From positions 1 through 40,157 of the IMG/VR virus record IMGVR_UViG_3300006174_000003: 40,157 nt of DNA. The stretch is one strand, 5' to 3'. Shown one piece after another: positions 15,285-33,135 of the stretch; position 1 is the stretch's first letter; each line of letters begins with the position of its first letter. The stretch is from a virus. The position numbers and the translations under genes are program-made. The notes beneath the pieces are model-generated. The model was not told the DNA's origin and searched no databases. It was given only the letters and a program-made list of their open reading frames with translations.

Positions 15285-15721
15285 GTTGATATTCCTCTAA
15301 CCCTGAACACATCTACAATTCTCTTCCGCCACTGTGGTGTTATGTCATGCTCAGAAACTGCATTTGCAGTCTGGTATGAGTGCAACATTTTCTCATTGCC
15401 TGTGTAGAAACCTATGTGCTGTTCTGCACCTGCTATGCTAAATAACATAACATCACCAGGTTTCCACAGGTCACCTTCTACACGATCACACCATGTCTCT
15501 ACCTCTGCACGCATTACACCATTTGGCATGACACGCGAATAGTCTCTCTTGTCATATGTAAAACCCATTACCTCACGAAGCACACATATGATGAGACCAC
15601 AGCAGTCTACACCATCACCATTGTTACGGTCTCTGCCCTTCTTGCGACCTGTGTGATAGAATGGTGTGTACAACCATGTACGTGCCTCTTTGACAATGTC
15701 ATCACCAGTAAACTTGTTCAT
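15278..15721 (-). CDS. NlpC/P60 family peptidase, tail-associated
   Basis: This 147-residue cell-wall peptidase opens the peptidoglycan during DNA entry. The catalytic cysteine is C40 in GVDCCGLI. The histidines are H102 in EQHIGFY and H114 in MLHSYQ, and the KPGDVMLF strand before H102 is typical of the family. It is equivalent to GTA gp14 and sits between the DUF2163 hub protein and the tip protein. The ATG overlaps the upstream stop by four bases (ATGA). No signal peptide is present, as expected for a virion enzyme. Confidence 0.92.
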   Translation of the reverse strand: MNKFTGDDIVKEARTWLYTPFYHTGRKKGRDRNNGDGVDCCGLIICVLREVMGFTYDKRDYSRVMPNGVMRAEVETWCDRVEGDLWKPGDVMLFSIAGAEQHIGFYTGNEKMLHSYQTANAVSEHDITPQWRKRIVDVFRVRGISTC

Positions 15722-17040
15722 GCGCCTATACCTACCTTGAGTATCAGATCGGTGCCTGGTATGTGTGGGAAGCCCCTGAAGTTATTTATGTTATTCCATT
15801 TGTTGGCACATGTCGTATCAAGTAGGTCACAACCTGCAGTCACATATGCTGTGTCACCTGGTGATACAGGATATGGGAATGCATCACCAAGCAACAGCAG
15901 ATCACTCGCACCAGCAGGTGAACCAGACAGTGTCAATACCAGATCCTGTACATATACATCTAGAAGATGCTGTGCCTGATCATTGTGCAACTGCAAGCCA
16001 CATGTCATAGTACCACCACCTCCACTTGCAAGCGTGTTTATAGCCGCAAGTGATGGGCTCTCAAGTGTTATGTTGTTCTGGAATATACCACTCCAACTTT
16101 CTTGATCAAGCAAATATTGATTGCCAATCGGTACCTGCACATACAGGTTGACAGTACCTTGTTGTATCTGTGACCTAAGGTTCCATGAACCTTGGTAAGA
16201 TAGATATGCAGAACTCCATGTGCCCGATGGTATAGGAAATGTGAAGTATGTACCTATCATAGATAACCAACCAACTGTAAGGTTGCTGTTAAATGGAACG
16301 CCACCAGGCGATGATGGTGACGATATGACATTATTGCTTAGGTATGATGATGGATCACCATGTACTTTTATCTCACGTGTTATGCCAGCATTGGCACCAG
16401 TGATGAACTGTATCTTACCATATGTGTAATAGTTGAGCACAGACACTATGCCAGACATATACATAGATGTCTGGTCTGGTACCGATGTAACAGTGCCAAC
16501 ATATCTAACTGGGTGACCAGATGTATCCATACCACCAACAGTGTCGAATTTGCACCTATGGTCGCCGAAGAACTTTACCATGCAGGTAGGGTTGATCGTC
16601 TCGCCAATCTGTTGGCTCATCAACTGTGTCAGTGATCGTAGTTCAACTATGTACTTGTTGCCTGCGGTCTTGAAATCACCAAGGGTACCAGACAATGGTA
16701 TCATGTTGCCGATCGTCAGGTCGTCTGGATTGACCATGAATATGGACAGACGCGACTTGTCATATTTGCCTGCGAATATATCTGCATCAGTTATGGAGTC
16801 GCTCATTATGAGACCTGTGACTTCCATGTTGTCTACACCGGTACCAACATTTGCGACTATAGGTGAACCTGACACGGCAGACTGATGCTCATATGTTACA
16901 CCATCAAATACTATGTCAGAGTCCCATGTAGTGAAACCCATGACAGTAGAGTTCGTCAATACCAGTTTGACACATATTGCACATTGCATTGTCTCACCAT
17001 TAAGGTAAGCCTTGAATGCTTCTGTTATATCTCTTGGCAT
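15718..17040 (-). CDS. DUF2163 family tail hub protein (GTA gp13-like)
   Basis: This 440-residue protein belongs to the baseplate-hub DUF2163 family. Its N-terminus starts with a short helix (ITEAFKAYLNGE) and then a beta domain (VMGFTTWDSDIVFDGVTYEH). The central NPTCMVKFFGDHRCKFD, with two cysteines, is the family signature; in relatives such cysteines can bind a metal cluster. Residues about 200-380 look like an insertion, beta-rich and with a carbohydrate-binding character, not seen in short DUF2163 members. It follows the DUF2460 gene by two bases. The confidence reflects the motif and the conserved gene order. Confidence 0.88.
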   Translation of the reverse strand: MPRDITEAFKAYLNGETMQCAICVKLVLTNSTVMGFTTWDSDIVFDGVTYEHQSAVSGSPIVANVGTGVDNMEVTGLIMSDSITDADIFAGKYDKSRLSIFMVNPDDLTIGNMIPLSGTLGDFKTAGNKYIVELRSLTQLMSQQIGETINPTCMVKFFGDHRCKFDTVGGMDTSGHPVRYVGTVTSVPDQTSMYMSGIVSVLNYYTYGKIQFITGANAGITREIKVHGDPSSYLSNNVISSPSSPGGVPFNSNLTVGWLSMIGTYFTFPIPSGTWSSAYLSYQGSWNLRSQIQQGTVNLYVQVPIGNQYLLDQESWSGIFQNNITLESPSLAAINTLASGGGGTMTCGLQLHNDQAQHLLDVYVQDLVLTLSGSPAGASDLLLLGDAFPYPVSPGDTAYVTAGCDLLDTTCANKWNNINNFRGFPHIPGTDLILKVGIGA

Positions 17041-17042
17041 TG

Positions 17043-17711
17043 TTAGTCTCTTATCTCTACTATATTGATCGAGTCAATACTACGTATAGTCGTTGCCTCT
17101 TGTACAAACTTCATCTCGTCTACATCGAACCTTGCATGTATGTGGAACTGGCCGCTCCATGTCATCTGTTGTGTGTTATATGTCGATGGTGACTCAAGTG
17201 TCACTACACCAGATGTATAGTCAATTGTATAACCATTAGATCCCATGCCACCTTCGACAAGTGCATTGCCAGATCCATCACGTATGATTATTGTACCTGT
17301 AATAGGTTTGCTTATTTTACGCACCTTTGTGTAAGAACCAAATGCATAAGATTTATACATTTGTAATGGGCTGGTGCCATCACATGGTAACTTAGTCGGC
17401 TGTAAAGGTGTAGGTGTCAAATAACCCATGGGTGTATTCGAACCTACACGATAGTCATGGTAGTCAGACCAGTCAAGGAACCTGAAACTGTCAAGTCTAC
17501 CCTGTACAAGATTAAACAACGATGTTAGATCATACATCTGTTCGGGCTTCTTCAATGTGTATGCAACATCCCACTTGTAACGTGGTAGTCGCCACAGTGC
17601 TGCACGTTGCTCTACGCCAGAGCCAGTGACTGTCACCAATGTATTGAACGTTGGGCCACCGGCCGTGCCTTGGCTTATATCTGTTGGAAACAAAACATCT
17701 ATGAATGTCAT
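17043..17711 (-). CDS. DUF2460 family distal tail protein (GTA gp12-like)
   Basis: This 222-residue protein forms the ring between the tail tube and the hub. The sequence starts with FIDVLFPTDISQG and continues with RWDV-type residues (RLPRYKWDVAYTLKK) and FRFLDWSDYH, all typical of DUF2460. The second half contains TGTIIIRDGSG and YTSGVVTLESP, the beta-hairpins of the family. The ATG overlaps the stop of the tape measure gene by one base (TAATG), indicating coupled translation. Confidence 0.9.
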   Translation of the reverse strand: MTFIDVLFPTDISQGTAGGPTFNTLVTVTGSGVEQRAALWRLPRYKWDVAYTLKKPEQMYDLTSLFNLVQGRLDSFRFLDWSDYHDYRVGSNTPMGYLTPTPLQPTKLPCDGTSPLQMYKSYAFGSYTKVRKISKPITGTIIIRDGSGNALVEGGMGSNGYTIDYTSGVVTLESPSTYNTQQMTWSGQFHIHARFDVDEMKFVQEATTIRSIDSINIVEIRD

Positions 17712-20700
17712 TATCTATCCCTGTTCAATGCACGTCTTGCATTAGTGGCAGACTGGTATCCAATCTGTCCCTCTGTATTCCTGAACTGTTGTGGGTTCTG
17801 CACACCTGTTATGTTAAAGTATTGATGTATATGTGTATCACCAACAGACGCGGCTGTAGAACCAGGTGATGCACGACCAGGGCCACGCATACCCGGACCC
17901 ATATTGTCTATGTGCATATTGCCCTGTTCATCAACAGTTAGTCTCTCTGCCTTGTTCTCACCAACTATATATGATTTACCTTTTTCCATCGGACTACCTG
18001 TTGCAGCCGTGACTGATCCAGGGCCACTACTGAAACCTGTAGATGTACCACCACCACTAGATGCACCACCGCCACCACCTCCGGATGCAGCACCACCAAT
18101 GGCGCCGAGGATAGATGGCAACTGGTTCATCATAAGCTGCAGGAACTGAGACTCTAACCACTTGACCGCAAGTTGGAACAGCATGTTCTCAAAGTCCTGC
18201 ACTACACCATTAAAGAAGCCCTTGAACCCATGCTGCCGTAGGTTCTCAAGTGACTTGCCAAATATGTCAGCAGTCTGTGACATGACCTCTGACAGTATAG
18301 ACTTTATGTCGGCAGTCTGTCTAAGATGTTTGATAGTATCCTGTTGCTGTTTATCCATCGCTTTCCAGGCCGATGCAGATATCTTTATGTCACCGACTGA
18401 GTGTATATATGACTCACTCATGGCGTCATTAGCTTCTTTAACCTTCTGCATTATCTCGGCGACATCTTTAGATGTCTTGTCAAGTGCATCATTGGCGGCT
18501 ATCTGTTTGTATGTTGCCTCAGCTGCTGCAAGCATTGCGGCCTGGTTCTTGACCTGTGATGGATCATTGAATATGTCTTCGTATTGCTTCTTGAAGTTAT
18601 CCATGAACTCATCGTGTTTGCCCTGTGCTTCACTGTTTCCACCACGATCCTTGTTAAGCGTATTAACAGAGTCATCAAGTTTGCCAGACAGATAACTTCT
18701 GTACTTGCTTAGTTCATCGTTTTGCTTCTTCTGTTTCTCAGTGTCATCTGCAGTCGCCTTTGCAAACGCAACATTGGCGGCATATATGTCGCCGAGGATG
18801 TGGGCCACATCTTCGCCTGTGGCGACGAATACTTTAAGTTGGTCGATCGTTTGGCCAAGATCCATGTGGCTAAGCATGGTCAATGCTTTATTGCCAGTTA
18901 CACCTGTAAACTTCTTTAGTGCATCTGGATCTTCAGCAAGCTGCATGGCAAATTGATCTTGTGGTGTATCGCTTTTCTTACGTGGTTCATTTACATACTT
19001 TAACAGGTCTTTCTGTTGAGAGTTCGTAGCACTATTTTTATCGTATATATCTTGTGCATTTGCACTGGCAAGTAGCTGCTGAATGAGTGTAAAGAACTTC
19101 TTCATCAGTTCTGACTGTGGTGTGTCGACTGGCATAGGTGCCACACCACCCTTTGGTACCTGTGTTGGTGTTATACCAACCTTCAGATTACCAGACATGT
19201 TAGCAATGTCTTGTGTACTTGGCAGTCTTGGACTACCAGCCTGGTGGTACAAATGTGCGTACTTGCCACCAGGATTAACAAGATCAATGATCATCTCTTC
19301 AAGGTGTTTGTGATCTGTAGCAGAGTCTAATACCTTTCGCTTCTGTATCTGGAAGTCAGCGGCATCTGCTTCTTTCTTGGCATCTACATACTTCTTGGTC
19401 TCATCATTAAGTTGTGCTTGTGCATATGACTGTGCAAACAATGCATCAGCAGCCGACTTGCTGTACTTTGCAAGTTCAGCGAGCTTACCATGTTGTCTAT
19501 CCCACATTATCTCTGCTGCACTACCCTCATGTGATATGTCAAAGTATGCCTTGCCTAGATCATACAGTTGCTGTTGTGCAGCCTTAAGTGCAGCATTGTA
19601 TGCACTAACCTTAGACTTGGCAGCACTATCATCCCCATCATTTGCTGTGTTCTTTGTCTGATTGTGTGCCCATGGTTCATGATTTTCTTTATTGTTTATG
19701 CTAGGTAACTTAGGATGCAATGCATCATATGTATCTTGCATAGACTTTTTGGTCTCTGCATTAAGTTGTTTGTTAGCGGCTATTGCAGCAAGCATTGCCT
19801 GTCTTGCCTTGGCAAGATCCTGCATAGATGCCTTCTGCATGTTAGGTAATACATCTTGTTTTCCACTCTGTGAGAATGGTGCATATGTATCTGTCTGTGT
19901 CGTGTATGGGCTACCATAGCCAGGTTCACCTGGCTGTGCGATATGCTTAGTAAATGTAGGTGCTGGCACATATCCATGTGTCAGTGACCATTGTGATTGT
20001 TGTATAACCTGATTGTTCTGATCATACTGTTGTGCACGATTAGCATTGTCAGTCTGTAGTGCTTGTGCAGCTGCAAGTGCAGCAGCTGCCCTCATCTGTA
20101 CATAACTATTGGTGGCCTTGTCAGCAGCATCTGCAACAACACCAAGTATTTTACCTTGTGCATCGAACCCACTTATAAGATCCGGATTAAGTGCTAGTAT
20201 CTGATTGAGTATACTATGTGTATCTTTACCTGCAGCATGTAGGTCATTGTATCTCTTGACAAGTTCAACGACCTGTTTGGCATGTAGAGATGCCTGCTCT
20301 GCATTAGCAGCATGTGCCTTGGCCTGTGTCACCATACTCTGTGTGACAACTTCTGCTGTGTCATCTAGTGTATGTAACTTTAAATTGGCTATATATAATG
20401 CAGTACCAAATACTGCAACAGCTGCAAGTACAGGTAATATTGCAAGGCCAAATGATGCAAGACCAGCCAACAATCCAGGGCCACTAAGTGCTTCGGCGGC
20501 CACACCCATCGTAATAAGTGCGGTTCTAAGTTGTGCAATACCTATTACAAGTTTGCCGACTGTACCAACAAGTATAAGTGCAGCACCAGCAAGTGCTATA
20601 AACTTAACATCATTTTCTTTGGTACTCTCTGACAGGCCATTGAAATCCTTGAACAACACATTCACACCACCAATGATTTTGACGATAGATGGTGTAAGTG

Positions 20701-22312
20701 CATTCGCAATAGTTGATGCCAGTATGGTACCCATGTTCTGAACGCGACCAAGTTGATTGTTCAGATTGGCAAGTGATTGCTGGTACATCGCATTAACTTG
20801 TGATCCTCTGTCAAGAGAGTCAACAAGATGTTGGTAGTTATTCTCAAAGTCTTGGAAACCAGTACCGGTTGCAATCAGTGCACCTACAGTACCACGCAGA
20901 TTTGGGAACACTTTCTCTGCAAGGTCTGGTGCGGTCTGTACATTTAGTTTGGCACGTTGTGCCTTGTTAAGCTTGTTGAATGCCTCGACGACCTTATCGA
21001 ATGTACCACGTAGACCATTGGCCCTTAGTCCAATGTTGGTAAAGTCCGCAGGCAGATCGACACCGGTCATCTTGTGCAACAATGCGAGTTCCTTGCGGAC
21101 TGCTGCCGATGGCTGTGTGATCTTCTGTATGTCATTTCTTAGCTGTGTAGCAGCCTGTGAACCAGACAGGCCATGCTGTGTGAACGTGATAAGTGCGGCA
21201 TTTGCCTCTGTGAAAGATATACCAAGGTTGGCGGCCGTCGCATACAACTGACCACCAACATCAATCATCTGCTGCATTGTCAATGTGGATCGTCGACCAG
21301 TCTCTATCATTTCTGACATAGTCTTATCGAGACCCGCTGGTGTACGTGGCAGATTGAACTCTTTAGTGGCTTTGGCCAAAAGCTCTGCTGTGTCAGCAAT
21401 GTTCGTACCTGTAGCAATGGACCCCTTCATTGCGGTACGTAAGCCATTGGCCGCCTCGGTCGCCGAGAAGGTATAGTCTGTGAACAGGCGGAAGCCGTGG
21501 GCGAGTTCGTCCATATTGGCACCACCTTCAACACCTAGTTGTTCCACTACTGCATTCATGAATTGAATGTTCTTTGTGGACAACATGGTATTGTGTGCCA
21601 TATTGGTTAACATCAAGTTGAAGTCTGCACCGACCTTAGTGCCAAGTGCGAGACCACCTGTTATGACAAGACCACTAACAAGTGCCGTACCTGCCACAGC
21701 ATTGAGTGCTCTTGTTCTATGTTCTGCCGCATCCTGTTGGCGTCGTAATGCCATGGCTGTAGCCACATCATTAGATGCATCTACTGACTCTTCAAAATTA
21801 CTTGCACGTGATTTAATATATGCACTCTTAGAAGATGCGGCTTTCGCCGTCGCAGCATACTTTGCTTCACGTACATTTAATTCATCAAGTGCGGCAGTTG
21901 CACGTTTTGCTTCAATCTCCATTGCCTGAAGGTCTTTTACAGCTGCTGCTAAATCTTTACGTGCCTGTACTATACCAGTACGGCTACCTTTTGGTTGGGC
22001 CGCCAATGTGGCTACACGTTGTGCCTGTAATTCTTTAATCTGTCTCGCAATGTCTGCCTGTTGCTGTGCACTAAATGCTGCATTCATCGCAGCACCACGC
22101 CGCTGGCCCATTGCATTCTGCATTATGAATGCAGTCTGTGCCGTACTGTCAAGTCTAGCGGCCTGTGCACGCATGGCGGCAACAGTGGCTGTGGTCTGCT
22201 GACCACGTACCTTAACTTGGTTTAGACGTGCATCAACCTCGTTCATACCTAGCTTGAACTGTGTTAGGTCTGCACCTACCTGCGCTATTAGGTTTGCCAC
22301 TGTTATCGACAA
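17711..22312 (-). CDS. Tape measure protein
   Basis: This 1,533-residue tape measure protein sets tail length. At about 0.15 nm per residue the tail should be near 230 nm. The N-terminus is coiled coil (residues 1-170). A TP901-type tape-measure domain follows, with signatures such as TMQQMIDVGGQLYATAA and FTQHGLSGSQAATQLRNDI. Hydrophobic membrane segments include IALAGAALILVGTVGKLVIG and GLASFGLAILPVLAAVAVFG. The remaining part is helical with Gly-rich spacers near the C-terminus (SGGGGGGASSGGG). The start is TTG 22312, immediately after the TAA of the frameshifted chaperone product, with AGGA eight bases upstream. Confidence 0.95.
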   Translation of the reverse strand: MSITVANLIAQVGADLTQFKLGMNEVDARLNQVKVRGQQTTATVAAMRAQAARLDSTAQTAFIMQNAMGQRRGAAMNAAFSAQQQADIARQIKELQAQRVATLAAQPKGSRTGIVQARKDLAAAVKDLQAMEIEAKRATAALDELNVREAKYAATAKAASSKSAYIKSRASNFEESVDASNDVATAMALRRQQDAAEHRTRALNAVAGTALVSGLVITGGLALGTKVGADFNLMLTNMAHNTMLSTKNIQFMNAVVEQLGVEGGANMDELAHGFRLFTDYTFSATEAANGLRTAMKGSIATGTNIADTAELLAKATKEFNLPRTPAGLDKTMSEMIETGRRSTLTMQQMIDVGGQLYATAANLGISFTEANAALITFTQHGLSGSQAATQLRNDIQKITQPSAAVRKELALLHKMTGVDLPADFTNIGLRANGLRGTFDKVVEAFNKLNKAQRAKLNVQTAPDLAEKVFPNLRGTVGALIATGTGFQDFENNYQHLVDSLDRGSQVNAMYQQSLANLNNQLGRVQNMGTILASTIANALTPSIVKIIGGVNVLFKDFNGLSESTKENDVKFIALAGAALILVGTVGKLVIGIAQLRTALITMGVAAEALSGPGLLAGLASFGLAILPVLAAVAVFGTALYIANLKLHTLDDTAEVVTQSMVTQAKAHAANAEQASLHAKQVVELVKRYNDLHAAGKDTHSILNQILALNPDLISGFDAQGKILGVVADAADKATNSYVQMRAAAALAAAQALQTDNANRAQQYDQNNQVIQQSQWSLTHGYVPAPTFTKHIAQPGEPGYGSPYTTQTDTYAPFSQSGKQDVLPNMQKASMQDLAKARQAMLAAIAANKQLNAETKKSMQDTYDALHPKLPSINNKENHEPWAHNQTKNTANDGDDSAAKSKVSAYNAALKAAQQQLYDLGKAYFDISHEGSAAEIMWDRQHGKLAELAKYSKSAADALFAQSYAQAQLNDETKKYVDAKKEADAADFQIQKRKVLDSATDHKHLEEMIIDLVNPGGKYAHLYHQAGSPRLPSTQDIANMSGNLKVGITPTQVPKGGVAPMPVDTPQSELMKKFFTLIQQLLASANAQDIYDKNSATNSQQKDLLKYVNEPRKKSDTPQDQFAMQLAEDPDALKKFTGVTGNKALTMLSHMDLGQTIDQLKVFVATGEDVAHILGDIYAANVAFAKATADDTEKQKKQNDELSKYRSYLSGKLDDSVNTLNKDRGGNSEAQGKHDEFMDNFKKQYEDIFNDPSQVKNQAAMLAAAEATYKQIAANDALDKTSKDVAEIMQKVKEANDAMSESYIHSVGDIKISASAWKAMDKQQQDTIKHLRQTADIKSILSEVMSQTADIFGKSLENLRQHGFKGFFNGVVQDFENMLFQLAVKWLESQFLQLMMNQLPSILGAIGGAASGGGGGGASSGGGTSTGFSSGPGSVTAATGSPMEKGKSYIVGENKAERLTVDEQGNMHIDNMGPGMRGPGRASPGSTAASVGDTHIHQYFNITGVQNPQQFRNTEGQIGYQSATNARRALNRDR

Positions 22313-22522
22313 TTAACTTTTCCTAGCCCTCTCGTATTCGGCGTAGCTTTCGGCAGACTGTGCCATTAAAGCTCTTTGTCGCCACATCATTGGTTTGAGC
22401 TCCAGCTCCCACGGGGCAACACCGAGATAACGTGCTGCCCGCATGGTAAGGTACCATGATGGTGCCTTCCCGGCCCTACCGTTTAGGCAAAGGAACTTTC
22501 TGAGTTGGAGCTCTTCATTTCC
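22313..22522 (-). CDS. Tail assembly chaperone, -1 frame extension (GT part)
   Basis: This frame has no start of its own but stays open from the slip site to TAA at 22313-22315 and encodes about 69 residues. It contains LQLRKFLCLNGRAGKAPSWY and, after it, LTMRAARYLGVAPWELEL, MMWRQRALMAQ and EYERARKS. This is the typical composition of the C-terminal half of GT-type tail assembly chaperones, which bind the tape measure protein. Joined to the first 174 codons of the upstream frame it would give a product of about 243 residues. The gap would otherwise be an unusual 167-base non-coding stretch in a tightly packed operon. Confidence 0.85.
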   Translation of the reverse strand, partial: GNEELQLRKFLCLNGRAGKAPSWYLTMRAARYLGVAPWELELKPMMWRQRALMAQSAESYAEYERARKS

Positions 22523-23043
22523 CCCGGGGATAGTTGCTCCCCGACAGCCTTGACGATATCCACCATAACATTGACAGGCACGTCTATAAGACCCTGTGTA
22601 GTCACAGGCACGATCTTGCTCTCGAGCAATGGTTCGCCGTCCTCGAAGACCTGCTCAAGCACATAGACGAACCACTTCTCTTCGCCTTCGGCGAACTCAT
22701 GGTCTACCTTTGCCTGTGGCCATTCACCTATCTTGCCACCACGACCATTTATAACAAATCGCCGAGGGCCAAGGTATGGTGCCTTGAAGTTCTTGTCGAC
22801 TTCACCTGTCTCTTCGCTCTTGATGTAATCCCACACTTCATATTCGTTGGTGAGATCCCATGTGGCTATGAGTGGAAGCATCATGTCGATCATTGCGTGG
22901 CCTGCGCCAAGGTTGGAGATTTGTGACTCTTCTTCCAGCCGTGGTGTATAGGCATGCGAGAAGTATGTGACGTTAAGTACGTCGTCACCATAGTTTACCT
23001 TAAGTTCGCGTGTCTTCGACTTAAGTTTTTTGAGTGTAGGCAT
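22483..23043 (-). CDS. Tail assembly chaperone (G-like)
   Basis: This 186-residue protein lies between the major tail protein and the tape measure gene, the invariant position of lambda G-type chaperones. The sequence starts PTLKKLKSKTRELKV and contains a beta-rich middle with LGPRRFVINGRGGKIG. The C-terminal end (after codon 174) is short and Ser-rich (EMKSSNSESSFA), as expected for the unshifted product. The ATG follows GGGGAGG six bases upstream. In the family, most ribosomes make this product and a few percent shift to the GT form; that ratio is not readable from sequence. Confidence 0.85.
   Translation of the reverse strand: MPTLKKLKSKTRELKVNYGDDVLNVTYFSHAYTPRLEEESQISNLGAGHAMIDMMLPLIATWDLTNEYEVWDYIKSEETGEVDKNFKAPYLGPRRFVINGRGGKIGEWPQAKVDHEFAEGEEKWFVYVLEQVFEDGEPLLESKIVPVTTQGLIDVPVNVMVDIVKAVGEQLSPGEMKSSNSESSFA
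22522..22528 (-). promoter_or_regulatory. Programmed -1 ribosomal frameshift site CCCGGGG
   Basis: On the minus strand the sequence reads TCC CCG GGG GAA in the chaperone frame. C CCG GGG is a canonical X XXY YYZ heptamer (X=C, Y=G, Z=G). A -1 shift places the ribosome in a frame that runs open to TAA at 22313-22315, just before the tape measure start. I see no obvious strong stem downstream. Confidence 0.8.
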
Positions 23044-23106: not shown

Positions 23107-24393
23107 TTAGAGTGCTGTTAGCTCGACATCGATTTCGACACGTACAGCATTTCCACCCATGAGGGTTGGATCCAATATGAGTGTAGACTCATACGCACCT
23201 GTGTAGACACCATTGGTATCCTGCTTGGGTCCGGCGATTACCTTTACTGCTTCGGTGATCTTGAAGCGGTGACGGAAACCAGACTCGATCGACGGGCCGC
23301 GGATCTCAATGACACGGTAGATGATCTGTCCGGAACGAAGGTAGCCAAGAACGGTCTGCCCATTGGTATCCTGTGCCATTGTCATCTTCTGTGTCCACTT
23401 GGTCTGTGCAGACTCAACAGTGTTAGAGAATGAGTCTACACTGTCGTCAAGTGTGATTACAGGTGTCTGTCGATCCGTGCATCCCCATTCCATGTCGAAT
23501 ACACGTTTCTGTCGTTGTAGACCAACAAGAGAGGTACCAAGGAAGATACCAACGTCACTGGAGTTCATCGGCATTGATGGTTTATCGGTGATGTCTGTAA
23601 GTGGAGTAACCGTGAATGGATCTACACCTTTGACACCGATGAAGTTACCAGTCTTCGTCATTTCCTTCTCACTCATCTTTAGCATGAGTGCAGTCGGTGT
23701 CAACTGTCCGATCTGCTGACCGAAGTTGGCGATACCAGGTGCACCCTTCTCGAGTGTATACGTCTGAAGTGATGCCTCAGGTCCGAATGGTATCATATCG
23801 AATGTGAACCGCCGAGTATTGGTAGCCGTGTAAGCAACAGCGAGTGTCGGTAGTGGTGTACCTGTTGGGTTGGATAGTACAAATGTACCAGTAGACAACC
23901 ATGCGACACCAGATACAACATATGATGGTGCTGCACCAGTTACCGTTACATTACCAACACCAACATTGGTAAGTGCACCAATCGCCGCCTGTAATGCACT
24001 TGCATTCGCGAATGAGGCCGCCGCGAGTGTGGTCGTTACAGCACTACCATTGATATGTGTAGTAACATCGAAACCGATGGTACCAGACGCATTGCCAACA
24101 TTCCATGTGTTGGATACTGGTGTGCTAATGGCTGGTGAACAAAGTAGTCCGGAGAACAGGTATGCATCATCATAGTAAGCCATGTGGCCGCCGATGGTAC
24201 CGGTGGTGTACTCCTTGCCATGTGATGTGTCAGTGTCGAACTTGGATCCCTGCACCTTTATCTCGCGGATATCAGGGGTTATGTCCGGCATGAAGTCCGT
24301 CTCCATGAGACGGAATGTTGCGGCGCCTGTGACGCCAGGGGTCGTCTCTACAAATAGCTGCGACCCCTCGTATACTGTAGCTCTTTCGTTCAT
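23107..24393 (-). CDS. Core major tail protein from internal start (proposed)
   Basis: An in-frame ATG at codon 487 of the long gene is preceded by GGGAG five bases upstream (GGGAGACCACATG). It would yield a 428-residue protein beginning NERATVYEGSQLF, close to normal size for a tail-tube subunit plus a C-terminal domain. If used, the tail tube would be built mostly of short subunits with some long, lectin-bearing ones. This is inferred only from the ribosome site, the domain boundary and the composition change at the same place. Confidence 0.5.
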   Translation of the reverse strand: MNERATVYEGSQLFVETTPGVTGAATFRLMETDFMPDITPDIREIKVQGSKFDTDTSHGKEYTTGTIGGHMAYYDDAYLFSGLLCSPAISTPVSNTWNVGNASGTIGFDVTTHINGSAVTTTLAAASFANASALQAAIGALTNVGVGNVTVTGAAPSYVVSGVAWLSTGTFVLSNPTGTPLPTLAVAYTATNTRRFTFDMIPFGPEASLQTYTLEKGAPGIANFGQQIGQLTPTALMLKMSEKEMTKTGNFIGVKGVDPFTVTPLTDITDKPSMPMNSSDVGIFLGTSLVGLQRQKRVFDMEWGCTDRQTPVITLDDSVDSFSNTVESAQTKWTQKMTMAQDTNGQTVLGYLRSGQIIYRVIEIRGPSIESGFRHRFKITEAVKVIAGPKQDTNGVYTGAYESTLILDPTLMGGNAVRVEIDVELTAL

Positions 24394-25851
24394 GTGGTCT
24401 CCCGTCGTTGTTGTGATCGTGACTGGCCCAATGCCAGCCGGTAAGAGACTCTCGTTTCCCGAGGAGTCGAGCGCCGTTAGCGCATAGTAATAGGGTTGTA
24501 ACTCTGTTAGCGAGTGTGTATCTATATACGGTGATGGAAATACATCTGCACCGATTAGGTCATAACTGCCGCCGAAGGATGTTGCCCTATATACATTTAT
24601 TCCAACCGTGTCATCAACAGGTGTGTATGTTATTGTTATACTCATCATCGGCCCTGTTGATGGTGTGAGTAATACACCTGTTGGTGGAGGTGGTGCCGTC
24701 GTAACATCACTAGTTGGTGTGCCGGGTATAGTAGTCATACCATCGATTGCTACTATCCTAAATATGTAAACTGTATCACCAGTTAAAGTATTGTCTACAA
24801 CTGTCGTGCCTGGTACAACATGTGTTAGATCTGTTGCCCATACAGTAGGTGCAGATGCAAGTGCTTTCTGCAGGTTAAGTTGTGAATATGTGCCACCCCA
24901 GTGTGGTACAGTGAATGATACCTGTGTGTCATTTATCGTCACAACTGTTGGTGGGTTTATTGGTGCCTGCATAGACAGTACACCAAACATATGTGTCACC
25001 TTAAATGATGGATCATCTCTGTATGACATTATACCAAACTGATGTGTTAGTTTGAATATGGGGTCATCACTGTAAGATGCCACACCAAATTGGTGTGTTA
25101 TATTTAATGCAGGTGTACCTAACTCAGATACAATACCAAACTGTTGTGTCACATCAAGATTTGCAGCGGCAGTTATGGTTGTTGTAAGTGGGCCACTAGG
25201 TGTGAATGCACTAAAATATACAGCATTTCCAACTGTTAATCTTAGATCATCTATGTACCCTTGGAACGGAAATACAACACTTAATCCTGGTTTACCACGT
25301 CCAACATAAAATGCATTTCCTACATTATATGGTATCGTCCATCCTGCTGGTACATTTTGTGTAGATCCAAATCCACCATCTATATAAAATGTGAATGTAT
25401 CTGTAACACGTGTTATCGCTATATGGTGCCATGCACCAGGTGCAGGTTGTGGGCATGACACATTTAAAGGCCAACCAGCATTATCTTCTGCATGTGGCGA
25501 TGCAACAAAATGGAAATTAGATCCATCTGTATACATTGCCCAACATGTACCATCTGTTGTACCACGATTATCAAACGGTATCATTGTACCGCCTGCAGTG
25601 AAGTATATCCAGAACTCTAGGCAAAAATCATTGTCGCCAAGTTGGAAGTCTTCAGAGTACGGAAATGATACAGCATCACCAGTGTCACCTGATGGGTTAA
25701 GCGATACAGCACCACTGAACTCAGCTATGGCGTTTTGTATAGCGGCCGAACCAAGTGCTGTGCCAACATGGCCAGATGCACTACTATCTGTAAATGTAGT
25801 ACTGCCATCCGCACCATCGAAGTGGCATAGCAGTTTTACGGCCGAAGACAT
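23107..25851 (-). CDS. Major tail protein with N-terminal LamG and FN3 extension
   Basis: This 914-residue protein is far longer than usual tail-tube proteins. Residues 1-215 are a LamG/concanavalin-like domain (LLCHFDGADGSTTFTD, then WHHIAITRVTDTFTFYIDG and GYIDDLRLTVGNAVY). Residues about 230-300 hold four 17-residue repeats around THQFGIMSYRDDP. Two fibronectin III-like domains follow (about 300-390 and 390-480; the second has GINVYRATSFGGSYDLIG and YYYALTALDSSGNESLLP). The tail-tube domain starts near M487 (MNERATVYEGSQLFVE) and reaches the end. LamG and FN3 modules on tails often bind cell-surface or environmental sugars. The ATG follows AAGG. The base composition of the N-terminal part is AT-richer than that of the tube part, indicating a mosaic gene. 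Confidence 0.85.
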   Translation of the reverse strand: MSSAVKLLCHFDGADGSTTFTDSSASGHVGTALGSAAIQNAIAEFSGAVSLNPSGDTGDAVSFPYSEDFQLGDNDFCLEFWIYFTAGGTMIPFDNRGTTDGTCWAMYTDGSNFHFVASPHAEDNAGWPLNVSCPQPAPGAWHHIAITRVTDTFTFYIDGGFGSTQNVPAGWTIPYNVGNAFYVGRGKPGLSVVFPFQGYIDDLRLTVGNAVYFSAFTPSGPLTTTITAAANLDVTQQFGIVSELGTPALNITHQFGVASYSDDPIFKLTHQFGIMSYRDDPSFKVTHMFGVLSMQAPINPPTVVTINDTQVSFTVPHWGGTYSQLNLQKALASAPTVWATDLTHVVPGTTVVDNTLTGDTVYIFRIVAIDGMTTIPGTPTSDVTTAPPPPTGVLLTPSTGPMMSITITYTPVDDTVGINVYRATSFGGSYDLIGADVFPSPYIDTHSLTELQPYYYALTALDSSGNESLLPAGIGPVTITTTTGDHMNERATVYEGSQLFVETTPGVTGAATFRLMETDFMPDITPDIREIKVQGSKFDTDTSHGKEYTTGTIGGHMAYYDDAYLFSGLLCSPAISTPVSNTWNVGNASGTIGFDVTTHINGSAVTTTLAAASFANASALQAAIGALTNVGVGNVTVTGAAPSYVVSGVAWLSTGTFVLSNPTGTPLPTLAVAYTATNTRRFTFDMIPFGPEASLQTYTLEKGAPGIANFGQQIGQLTPTALMLKMSEKEMTKTGNFIGVKGVDPFTVTPLTDITDKPSMPMNSSDVGIFLGTSLVGLQRQKRVFDMEWGCTDRQTPVITLDDSVDSFSNTVESAQTKWTQKMTMAQDTNGQTVLGYLRSGQIIYRVIEIRGPSIESGFRHRFKITEAVKVIAGPKQDTNGVYTGAYESTLILDPTLMGGNAVRVEIDVELTAL

Positions 25852-25860
25852 GCTTTTACC

Positions 25861-26937
25861 TTATATAGTTCGCTTGATGCCAATTTGTAGTGGTGCACCA
25901 CCATTCACACCCGTATTGAAGTCTTCTTTGACCCATGCAGCACTTGTCCACGGGTTGACACAGAAGTATCTACGTGCAACAGAATATATGTCGCCAGTAG
26001 GTGCATATATATCATGTGTATCATACTGATTGTCTGCAGGTGTACCATCACCAAATGTTACAACACCAGCGGCTATACCAGCATCATCCTTGGCGGTAGC
26101 TGTGACAATGCTAAGACACTTAATGACAGCGGCTGTGGTCGGTACACCACCCTGTTCATACATATCTATTAGACCAACAGTTGGTGCGGCATTATATGTT
26201 GTATTGTCATCAAGGCCAGTAGGATCCTGTATGTTCTGTACATTTGTATTTGAACCTGGGTTAGGTGTCATCTGTGTCTGTGCACCATTTGTTGTAAAAC
26301 CCATGTAGTACATTCTCTGGTCACCGTCGAAACCTTTGTTCTTTGTATTCGACGGGTCTATCGGATCATTCACATCATCATTGACATAAATATCTTGTAC
26401 CTGATGGTGGAAACCAGAACCATTATCGGCGACGATAACAGCTGTGTTACATGGTTGTGTCAAATTCCATGATGTATGTGCACCTGTCAAACTGATAAGT
26501 GTCTCACCATTTAGTTTGAGTGTGGCTGTACCAGATGAACCAGTATCGTTTAGGCCACCATACTCAATGTAATTCCATACACCAACCGCTAATAAACCTG
26601 CTGTACTTGTGAATAGTGTGGTCGTATTAATAGATCCAAGTTTAAGTGCACCACTTGACGTAACCTGTAGACACAAGCCAAATTGGCTCAAACTGTTTAA
26701 TAGGTATGCAACATTTGAACCTCCACCAAACTGTAGTACCTTCATTGCAAAACCAAGGTAGTTAGTGAAACTGGTAGCATTTCTAAATGGCACGGCGACA
26801 CTATTGTTATCCACAAGTTGTGTACATGGACCATTAGACCAGCGGCCACCAGTTGCCTGATATGTAGCATTGTACTGTAGGTATCTACCAGGATTACTGG
26901 ACGCATAATAACCAAGCGGATCATCAAACACTCTCAT
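25861..26937 (-). CDS. Putative virion decoration or minor tail protein with ConA-like domain
   Basis: This 358-residue protein lies between the tail terminator and major tail protein genes. Residues about 1-205 look like a lectin-type jelly roll: WNYIEYGGLNDTGSS, then ATLKLNGETLISLTG and a closing VQDIYVNDDVND strand. The rest is Gly/Asn/Thr-rich and beta-prone. The start is ATG 26937, seven bases after AGGAG, rather than the longer frame to 26970. It overlaps the TAA of the preceding gene closely (TAAAATG). A sugar-binding tail decoration is a reasonable inference given the LamG domain in the next gene. No exact family is recognised. Confidence 0.7.
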   Translation of the reverse strand: MRVFDDPLGYYASSNPGRYLQYNATYQATGGRWSNGPCTQLVDNNSVAVPFRNATSFTNYLGFAMKVLQFGGGSNVAYLLNSLSQFGLCLQVTSSGALKLGSINTTTLFTSTAGLLAVGVWNYIEYGGLNDTGSSGTATLKLNGETLISLTGAHTSWNLTQPCNTAVIVADNGSGFHHQVQDIYVNDDVNDPIDPSNTKNKGFDGDQRMYYMGFTTNGAQTQMTPNPGSNTNVQNIQDPTGLDDNTTYNAAPTVGLIDMYEQGGVPTTAAVIKCLSIVTATAKDDAGIAAGVVTFGDGTPADNQYDTHDIYAPTGDIYSVARRYFCVNPWTSAAWVKEDFNTGVNGGAPLQIGIKRTI

Positions 26938-26938
26938 T

Positions 26939-27430
26939 TTACACTCCTGATGTAACTGTACAATACACACCGCCGAGGTGATACCATGTCGTATTGTTGA
27001 CGGACTCTGATACTTTTATGACCATGTGCCGCAGGAACCTGTACACATACACGCCATTACCAGTGTCAAGCGTGATATCAAAATTCACTATAGCATTGTC
27101 AACCGCATCCATATGCCGCTTGATTGGTCCGTATCCATTACCACTACCACATACCTTGATAAAGTACACGGCGTCTTGTATGGACCTGTAACCACCAACC
27201 GCATTTATGTCAACATTGCTAGTGGTACCAAACACTATGAATGGCGATGGTGTTGACAATGGTGCTATGTCTGCAAATATAACAGCATTCGCATTAGTCG
27301 CACCGGATGGGAACCGTGGGTCATTGCCCGGGTTACCAGTGCCAAGAAACCCAAATGCCGCCTGCACATCCGGATCATTCTGTAGTGTCTCGACTATCAT
27401 CTTGTCGATAGACATTATCTCTATCGGCAT
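26939..27430 (-). CDS. Putative tail terminator / tail completion protein
   Basis: This 163-residue protein sits where lambda gpU-like terminators lie: after the HK97 gp10-like protein and before the tube genes. It begins with a helix (IDKMIVETLQNDPDVQAAFG), then shows PFIVFGTTSNVDIN, YFIKVCGSG and a C-terminal YHLGGVYCTV strand, as in DUF3168/terminator folds. It would cap the tail tube and join it to the head. The assignment is by position and fold pattern, not by a diagnostic motif. The ATG overlaps the previous stop (TAATG). Confidence 0.65.
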   Translation of the reverse strand: MPIEIMSIDKMIVETLQNDPDVQAAFGFLGTGNPGNDPRFPSGATNANAVIFADIAPLSTPSPFIVFGTTSNVDINAVGGYRSIQDAVYFIKVCGSGNGYGPIKRHMDAVDNAIVNFDITLDTGNGVYVYRFLRHMVIKVSESVNNTTWYHLGGVYCTVTSGV

Positions 27431-31563: not shown

Positions 31564-32205
31564 TTACATTCCGTAAATGCCAGTGCCGCGTAGGGCCTGT
31601 ACATTGTGCTGGACGCGCTCCTCGTCGGTCGGTTGTGCCTGGCCGCCAGAGTCTGCGACTGCCCCTGTTACTTTCGGCTTCGGCACTGCTGTGGTGCGAC
31701 CCACTTGTGGATGCTCACCAGGTGCCGTCGTACGTGCCATCGGCGTGCCGGCAAGTGGCTCCATGAGTCCCTTGTCGACTGCGATTGCTTCATACTGGCG
31801 GGCCATCCCGCGAAGTAGAGCCAATGGCTGTGCGTCTATTACATCTGCAGCCTGCGCTCCAATTTCTTGGCCAAGGGCGACAACCGCCATGGCCTTCGTC
31901 TGTTTGCGCAAAATTGCAATGTATTCATCCCCGGTAGTGGCCCTGTTGATAAGTGCCGTCAGATGTTCCGGGGTGGTTATACCAGCGCTCGCGGCGGATG
32001 CAAGGAATGCGGCCTGTTCGCTAGTAAATGCGGCAACCATTGGTGCCGGTGCAGCGGGCTGTGCAGCAAGAGCCGTCGCCGGTTCTGTTAGTGCCGCTGG
32101 TGCCTGCGCAACAAGTAATGCGGCTGACGCTGTGCCGTCCGCGTCAGTCTCCAACCATCGTCTGACGTCCGATACATCGGCCGTCACTTCAGTTTCTCCT
32201 GCCAT
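31564..32205 (-). CDS. Nested scaffold protein (internal start in protease gene)
   Basis: An in-frame ATG at 32205 is preceded by a strong AAAGGAG eight bases upstream. It would produce a 213-residue protein starting AGETEVTADVSDVRRWLE, composed of the Ala-rich region and a helical C-terminal part. This is the arrangement of lambda Nu3 within gene C. Scaffold proteins guide capsid assembly and are needed in excess over the protease, which such a start would provide. It is inferred from the ribosome site and family architecture. Confidence 0.7.
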   Translation of the reverse strand: MAGETEVTADVSDVRRWLETDADGTASAALLVAQAPAALTEPATALAAQPAAPAPMVAAFTSEQAAFLASAASAGITTPEHLTALINRATTGDEYIAILRKQTKAMAVVALGQEIGAQAADVIDAQPLALLRGMARQYEAIAVDKGLMEPLAGTPMARTTAPGEHPQVGRTTAVPKPKVTGAVADSGGQAQPTDEERVQHNVQALRGTGIYGM

Positions 32206-33135
32206 CTTTGCTTCTCCTTTGGAAACCGGTTTACGTGCCGGCCTTGTCGGAGCGTCAAGTGCTGCAGCATGTGCTGCACCTAAGCTCTGGATTGTGTCGA
32301 CCAGTCCGAGCTTTTTGGCTCTACCTGCGACGAATACGTCACCGGTGGCGACACTGGCCATCGCCTTCTCGTCTAGATTGCGTCCCTTGGACACAGCCTT
32401 TACAAACAAGCCCATGAAGTCATCCGCACGCTTCTGTGCGGCTGCAAGGTGCTCGTCTGAAACTTCCATACCATGGCCAGCACCTTTAAGTGGCCCTGTT
32501 GTAATCCATGTCTTCTTGATGCCACGCTGCTTGTCATAACCAGTCGTGTCGGTGAGACAACAGATTATGCCGATCGACCCTACAAGTGCATTAGAGTTCG
32601 CAGATATCGATCTACACTGCGATGCAACAAGGTAGGCTGCAGATGCACCGGTGTCCTCTATGTATGCGTCGATCGGTTTGACACGATTAATGGCCCATAC
32701 ACACTGTGCAAGGTCGAATGCACCACTTACGTCACCACCAGGCGAGTCGATCACCAACATTATTGATCGCACAGACTTGTCTTCGGCAGCCTGCATAAGT
32801 GCTGCCTCTGTCGCCTTGGTAGAGACACCACCAAACATCGCCTGCATAGACGTTGCCTGCTTCGTCATCATGCCGGCCATATTGACATATGCGATACCAT
32901 CAAGTATCTGATATGGCTTGCGACGCTTGCTTGTGTCTTCCTGTGCTGCCTCTATGGCATCCGCTTCTGCTGCACGAGCCGTCTCGCGTCGTGCTTCCAT
33001 TATCTCGGCCGCACTGGCATTACATATGACACTCTCAATGCTGTCAGCATATACACGGTCGACAAGCCAGAATTGGCCAACCGCACGCACCATTAGCATT
33101 CTGCGTGACAACAATCCTTGCTCATCGATCTGCAT
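31564..33135 (-). CDS. S49 family capsid protease fused to scaffold
   Basis: This 523-residue protein matures the prohead. Residues about 75-280 are an S49 (SppA-like) protease with IDSPGGDVSG (129-138), nucleophile S165 in DTGASAAYLVAS and likely general base K217 in TTGPLKGAG. The 52-residue spacing equals that of S147 and K199 in B. subtilis SppA. Residues from about 310 are a low-complexity, Ala/Pro-rich and helical scaffold region. The gene overlaps the portal stop by one base (TAATG). As in lambda C/Nu3, the scaffold part also has its own start (see the nested gene). Confidence 0.92.
   Translation of the reverse strand: MQIDEQGLLSRRMLMVRAVGQFWLVDRVYADSIESVICNASAAEIMEARRETARAAEADAIEAAQEDTSKRRKPYQILDGIAYVNMAGMMTKQATSMQAMFGGVSTKATEAALMQAAEDKSVRSIMLVIDSPGGDVSGAFDLAQCVWAINRVKPIDAYIEDTGASAAYLVASQCRSISANSNALVGSIGIICCLTDTTGYDKQRGIKKTWITTGPLKGAGHGMEVSDEHLAAAQKRADDFMGLFVKAVSKGRNLDEKAMASVATGDVFVAGRAKKLGLVDTIQSLGAAHAAALDAPTRPARKPVSKGEAKMAGETEVTADVSDVRRWLETDADGTASAALLVAQAPAALTEPATALAAQPAAPAPMVAAFTSEQAAFLASAASAGITTPEHLTALINRATTGDEYIAILRKQTKAMAVVALGQEIGAQAADVIDAQPLALLRGMARQYEAIAVDKGLMEPLAGTPMARTTAPGEHPQVGRTTAVPKPKVTGAVADSGGQAQPTDEERVQHNVQALRGTGIYGM

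Follow-up and report, generated by a model that had tools for sequence, protein, structure and literature searches.

A putative tail-tube gene of the virus studied here probably gives rise to two products from two in-frame starts, a plain short subunit and an N-terminally decorated minority form, so that the tail would be studded with additional domains. The window, i.e. the complete 40,157-base IMG/VR virus record, harbors a 914-residue ORF on the minus strand, reading from 25851 to 23107. An earlier sequence-only reading had noticed the ORF at this place; it exists, and its strand is the minus strand. Initiation at codon 487 would yield a tube subunit of 428 residues, which would probably be the major form. 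Initiation at the upstream start would yield the 914-residue form, in which an exchangeable adhesin-like cassette sits on an FN3-like stalk, N-terminal to the same tube subunit. This cassette would comprise a LamG domain and repeats in the window and another domain in a relative, L002. With the long form as a minority of the subunits in the tube, the siphophage tail would carry surface-binding domains, which may help the phage to stay on the host surface. The features concerned are, in the direction of transcription:

26939-27430, minus strand: gp17-like tail completion protein (PF11367, E 5e-5, 23.9 bits, slightly below the cut-off of 24.5)
25861-26970, minus strand: extra structural gene of 369 aa, phrog_2448 (PHROG), absent from the relative L002
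25859-25862, minus strand: AAGG ribosome site for the long form; it overlaps the TAA that ends the preceding gene, and the TAAGG arrangement is the same in L002
23107-25851, minus strand: long ORF of 914 aa (decoration plus tube), from translation; the frame is also open in L002 (952 aa)
25237-25683, minus strand: LamG/concanavalin A-like domain, residues 57-205 (Pfam PF13385, phrog_24074)
24961-25185, minus strand: four degenerate repeats of about 18 residues, residues 223-297 (translation, by eye)
24394-24960, minus strand: FN3-like segment, residues 298-486 (match to PDB 3mpc; 41% identity to L002)
24399-24403, minus strand: internal ribosome site GGGAG (sequence; L002 counterpart AAGGAGG)
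24391-24393, minus strand: internal in-frame ATG, codon 487 (L002 counterpart TTG, codon 524, one alignment column off)
23107-24393, minus strand: putative tail-tube domain and short product of 428 aa, residues 487-914 (61-62% identity to L002; gene position)
22483-23043, minus strand: putative tail assembly chaperone (position; 55% identity to L002)
17711-22312, minus strand: tape measure protein (phrog_1533, E 1e-24)
L002, 14258-17116: fused ORF of the relative, 952 aa, no stops

The N-terminal half of the long form was analyzed for its domain content. The LamG domain proposed from the sequence was confirmed by PF13385 (E 3.4e-14, 53.7 bits against a curated Pfam cut-off of 27.6). The match to phrog_24074 (E 8e-29) spans residues 4-219 and extends beyond the LamG core. 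This domain may bind sugars. The repeats described between LamG and FN3 are visible in the translation as four degenerate copies of the pattern x(V/I/L)T(Q/H)(Q/M)FG(I/V)xS (xVTxQFGVxSY or THQFGVxSY type) at residues ~225-295, and are undetectable as repeats at the DNA level. No counterpart of these repeats was seen in L002. The FN3 segment of the same proposal fared less uniformly: residues 385-469 match the 'Fn3-like protein' of PDB 3mpc with an E value of 0.0011, but the Pfam search gave no match to an FN3 family.

The window contains a GTA-like siphophage structural operon. Its head part consists of the small and large terminase, portal, protease, a small gene in the head-decoration position and the capsid protein (phrog_3990). 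These are followed by connector genes, an HK97 gp10-like protein, the gp17-like tail completion protein, the 369-residue gene and the 914-residue ORF, and then by a small gene in the chaperone position, the tape measure and the GTA-type distal tail and hub genes. The latter occur in order downstream of the tape measure (phrog_4271, phrog_778, phrog_2913), and the hub matches GTA TIM-barrel proteins of Rhodobacter phages. The tail genes of the window and of GTAs presumably run in the order tube, chaperone, tape measure, DUF2460-, DUF2163- and NlpC/P60-like genes and hub. This tail gene order is shared with GTA-like tails (RcGTA; roseophage R4C, PMC10276861). In contrast, the plain putative tube gene in L022, a distant GTA-like locus, encodes only 216 aa.

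Residues 487-914 are putatively assigned as tail tube from gene position. The ORF lies between the tail completion gene and the chaperone and tape measure genes, the position of the tube gene in SPP1-type operons; it ends with the tube domain, and 63 nt separate its stop from the start of the next gene. Position thus speaks for the tail-tube label of the sequence-only reading, whereas Pfam, PHROG and PDB sequence searches with the tube domain gave no match. Two-row alignments were the input for AlphaFold predictions of the tube and the full protein, which gave a pLDDT of 29 and no usable fold. A family search with the putative chaperone was likewise without match. The 369-residue gene immediately precedes the decorated tube ORF. 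Translation of this gene probably begins at an ATG, codon 12, rather than at the listed GTG. Tetraselmis virus S20 and Sphingomonas phage Kimi contain weak relatives, which lie close to the tape measure gene or directly behind it.

Two IMG/VR contigs, L002 and L003, were reached via the capsid protein (78% identity). Of 11,160 bases, a single one distinguishes these contigs, which come from two metagenomes and were counted as one phage. The genes of L002 are co-linear with those of the window (portal 70%, capsid 78%, tube 61-62%, chaperone 55%, hub 52% identity), and the 369-residue phrog_2448 gene is missing. Because the 952-residue ORF is the sole gene between tail completion and chaperone in L002, the tube should lie within it. 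This ORF aligns with the window from residue ~300 to the end with 56% identity, i.e. 41% in the FN3-like segment (tblastn 2.5e-33) and 61-62% in the tube. LamG is absent from L002, and for the first ~300 residues of its ORF, Pfam, PHROGs and the phage collection returned no match. As the LamG part is replaced while the FN3-like and tube parts align, stalk and tube are kept and the outer cassette has been exchanged. Both the cassette exchange and the conservation of the FN3–tube fusion between two diverged phages can be read directly from these alignments. An assembly error or artificial fusion was ruled out, since the same open-frame fusion occurs in two independent assemblies of the relative. 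No other lineage with this tube was found among phages, plasmids, viral or genome contigs, which leaves two independent lineages. Alignments of tube, capsid, tape measure, portal and hub, used as queries, retrieved only L002/L003 and distant GTA-like loci without this tube. PF18906 was found in none of the four compared phage records and could not serve as a bridge, and the profile match of the 607-residue gene in the tube position of Sphingomonas phage Kimi was not significant. LamG relatives in viral contigs reside in other long or unrelated proteins, with no fusion to this tube seen.

The internal start was assessed in both phages. As the sequence-only reading had put it, a GGGAG motif with a 5-nt spacer precedes an in-frame ATG at codon 487. 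The DNA at the junction reads ACGGGAGACCAC-ATG in the window and CAAGGAGGCTTTACA-TTG in L002, whose site (AAGGAGG, 7 nt, TTG) differs from the window DNA and is stronger, with the same arrangement. Codon 487 shows the strongest anti-SD pairing (-7.4 kcal/mol) among the 32 in-frame ATG, GTG and TTG codons of the window ORF. The same holds for codon 524 among 41 such codons in L002 (-11.4 kcal/mol), where the value equals that of the capsid gene's site. Taken alone, the window site is not significant: it was matched by 457 of 3000 synonymous shuffles locally (15%) and by 1848 of 3000 anywhere. Across the genes of the window, 11 of 543 internal start-like codons, codon 487 among them, do as well. 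The L002 site was matched by none of 3000 shuffles locally and by 17 of 3000 anywhere; the only one of 379 internal start-like codons in L002 to reach -11.4 is the junction site itself. In a joint test of the two genes, scored by their best pair of aligned start sites, 6 of 1500 null trials were as good. Thus the internal site stands above chance through its conservation in L002 and not through the window statistics alone. Local RNA structure is low at both junctions, each of which falls within the least structured ~4% of codon positions. The excess of synonymous conservation between window and L002 is highest at the junction, but its P value is 0.28 after correction. The proposed internal start is supported by these comparisons, as L002, with a different N-terminal domain, keeps a ribosome site and a start within one codon of the domain boundary.

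A change in base composition had also been reported to coincide with codon 487. The change is real but gradual rather than sharp: GC3 is 0.24-0.27 in residues 1-385, 0.41 in 386-486, 0.61 in 487-575, 0.32 in 576-680 and 0.51 in 681-914. Given this gradual course and GC3 values of 0.35-0.41 in other tail genes of the operon, a composition boundary at codon 487 was set aside as weak evidence. In L002, the junction has the lowest GC3 of 941 windows in the gene. This dip fits a translation start, because low GC3 in early codons marks most gene starts of this GC-rich phage: in all seven tested, codons 2-8 have a GC3 below that of the whole gene, in one case by only 0.01. As a positive control, the internal Met of the L002 protease/scaffold gene lies at the lowest of 516 GC3 windows. 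Residues 576-680 (23812-24126, minus strand), the low-GC3 stretch within the tube domain, look like a putative inserted domain, similar in idea to domain 2 of YSD1.

Tubes that mix plain and decorated subunits are known. In SPP1, gp17.1 and gp17.1* form a mixed tube at 3:1, in which the minority form carries a C-terminal FN3 domain added by a +1 frameshift (PMC8718954, PMC6316719). The window resembles SPP1 in that one tube gene would give plain and FN3-decorated isoforms sharing the tube domain, the window isoforms being predicted from sequence. In contrast to the 87 C-terminal residues of SPP1, the predicted decoration comprises 486 N-terminal residues and depends on two in-frame starts. Since C-terminal decoration by programmed frameshift defines the SPP1 scheme and the decoration of the window ORF is N-terminal and in frame, the ORF was not filed under it. 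The MTP/TpeX proteins of lactococcal 936 phages share a long tube extension with carbohydrate-binding modules on part of the subunits and exchangeable extension subgroups, but their extension is C-terminal and frameshift-dependent (PMC6669499). Lambda gpV, T5 pb6 and YSD1_22 display Ig-fold decoration outside the siphophage tube, in YSD1 together with an inserted domain, whereas these are C-terminal single Ig domains in one tube protein, with no isoforms described there (PMC8718954). No report of an N-terminally LamG-decorated or dual-start tail tube was found in the literature searched, itself only part of the whole.

The N-terminal attachment bears on where the long form would be placed. In T5, inter-ring contacts involve the N-terminus of the tube protein, and tubes no longer form when it is deleted (PMC8718954); an N-terminal fusion could thus disturb assembly. 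This concern would ease if the long form were a minority or confined to one place. The short form might therefore build the tube alone, with a few long copies acting as a whisker or adhesin at a single site, such as a neck collar or the first or last ring, rather than being scattered. The sequence evidence is the same as for scattered decoration, the steric and inter-ring roles of the T5 N-termini make scattered fusions awkward (PMC8718954), and neck-borne binding modules are known in 936 phages (PMC6669499). However, the sequence contains no signal that would target one site, and the tube part of the long form is identical to the short form. We regard this placement as unlikely.

A further alternative is that the long form alone matters and that the internal site is left over from a time when the tube had a gene of its own, before this was joined to an adhesin gene upstream. 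The window site, which by itself lies within chance, and the different front cassettes of the two phages would fit such a past fusion. However, an unused site should decay at 61-62% protein identity and a tube-part GC3 of 0.48 in the window versus 0.95 in L002, whereas the boundary carries a strong site in each phage, of differing sequence, and that of L002 is improbable under its codon usage. This alternative is considered improbable.

The long start is conserved as well: the TAAGG...ATG arrangement is kept in both phages although the preceding genes differ. Its anti-SD pairing is weaker (-4.0 in the window and -6.2 in L002) than that of the internal site, which suggests that the short form would be the major product; the TTG start of L002 would offset this somewhat. 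That the long ORF is hardly used, with the short tube protein as sole functional product and an upstream adhesin frame lacking a stop by chance, would agree with the weak long start but is very improbable. In both lineages the frame runs open from the FN3-like part into the tube, the FN3-like part shows conservation, and TAAGG-ATG is retained at the long start; any product of the upstream start would still include the tube part, as no stop intervenes. The reading of one tube gene with two starts, the most economical one, fits the ORF, its domains and fusion, both starts and the strong internal ribosome site as they stand in the DNA of two diverged phages. Since L002 keeps the ribosome site and start at the same boundary despite its different N-terminal domain, both forms are likely made.

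A comparable arrangement is found in phage lambda, where a strong in-frame internal start within the longer C gene yields Nu3, a separate protein that corresponds to the C-terminal part. The window ORF likewise has a second start in its own frame, and this start and its ribosome site recur in the relative, but C/Nu3 is a head protease/scaffold and not a tail tube. In the head protease gene of the window (31564-33135, minus strand), codon 311 is an in-frame internal ATG preceded by AAGGAG, and the aligned Met of L002 is codon 298; judged from sequence, this gene likely holds a C/Nu3-like nested scaffold gene. Codon 345 of the DUF2163-like tail gene (15718-17040, minus strand) is another internal ATG in frame, and its anti-SD pairing is very strong (-10.6).

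More generally, display on the tube may be set by dual in-frame initiation, with an exchangeable N-terminal adhesin cassette on a fraction of the subunits, as the mirror image of the C-terminal frameshift of SPP1 and 936 phages; we give this generalization an even chance. In the known two-form tubes decoration is C-terminal and produced by frameshifting, and here the same outcome would seemingly be reached at the other end by an internal start. If true, partial tube decoration would have arisen along at least two different routes of translation, which would speak for selection on partial decoration itself, and this gene would offer a testable case for the tolerance of tail tubes to large N-terminal cargo.
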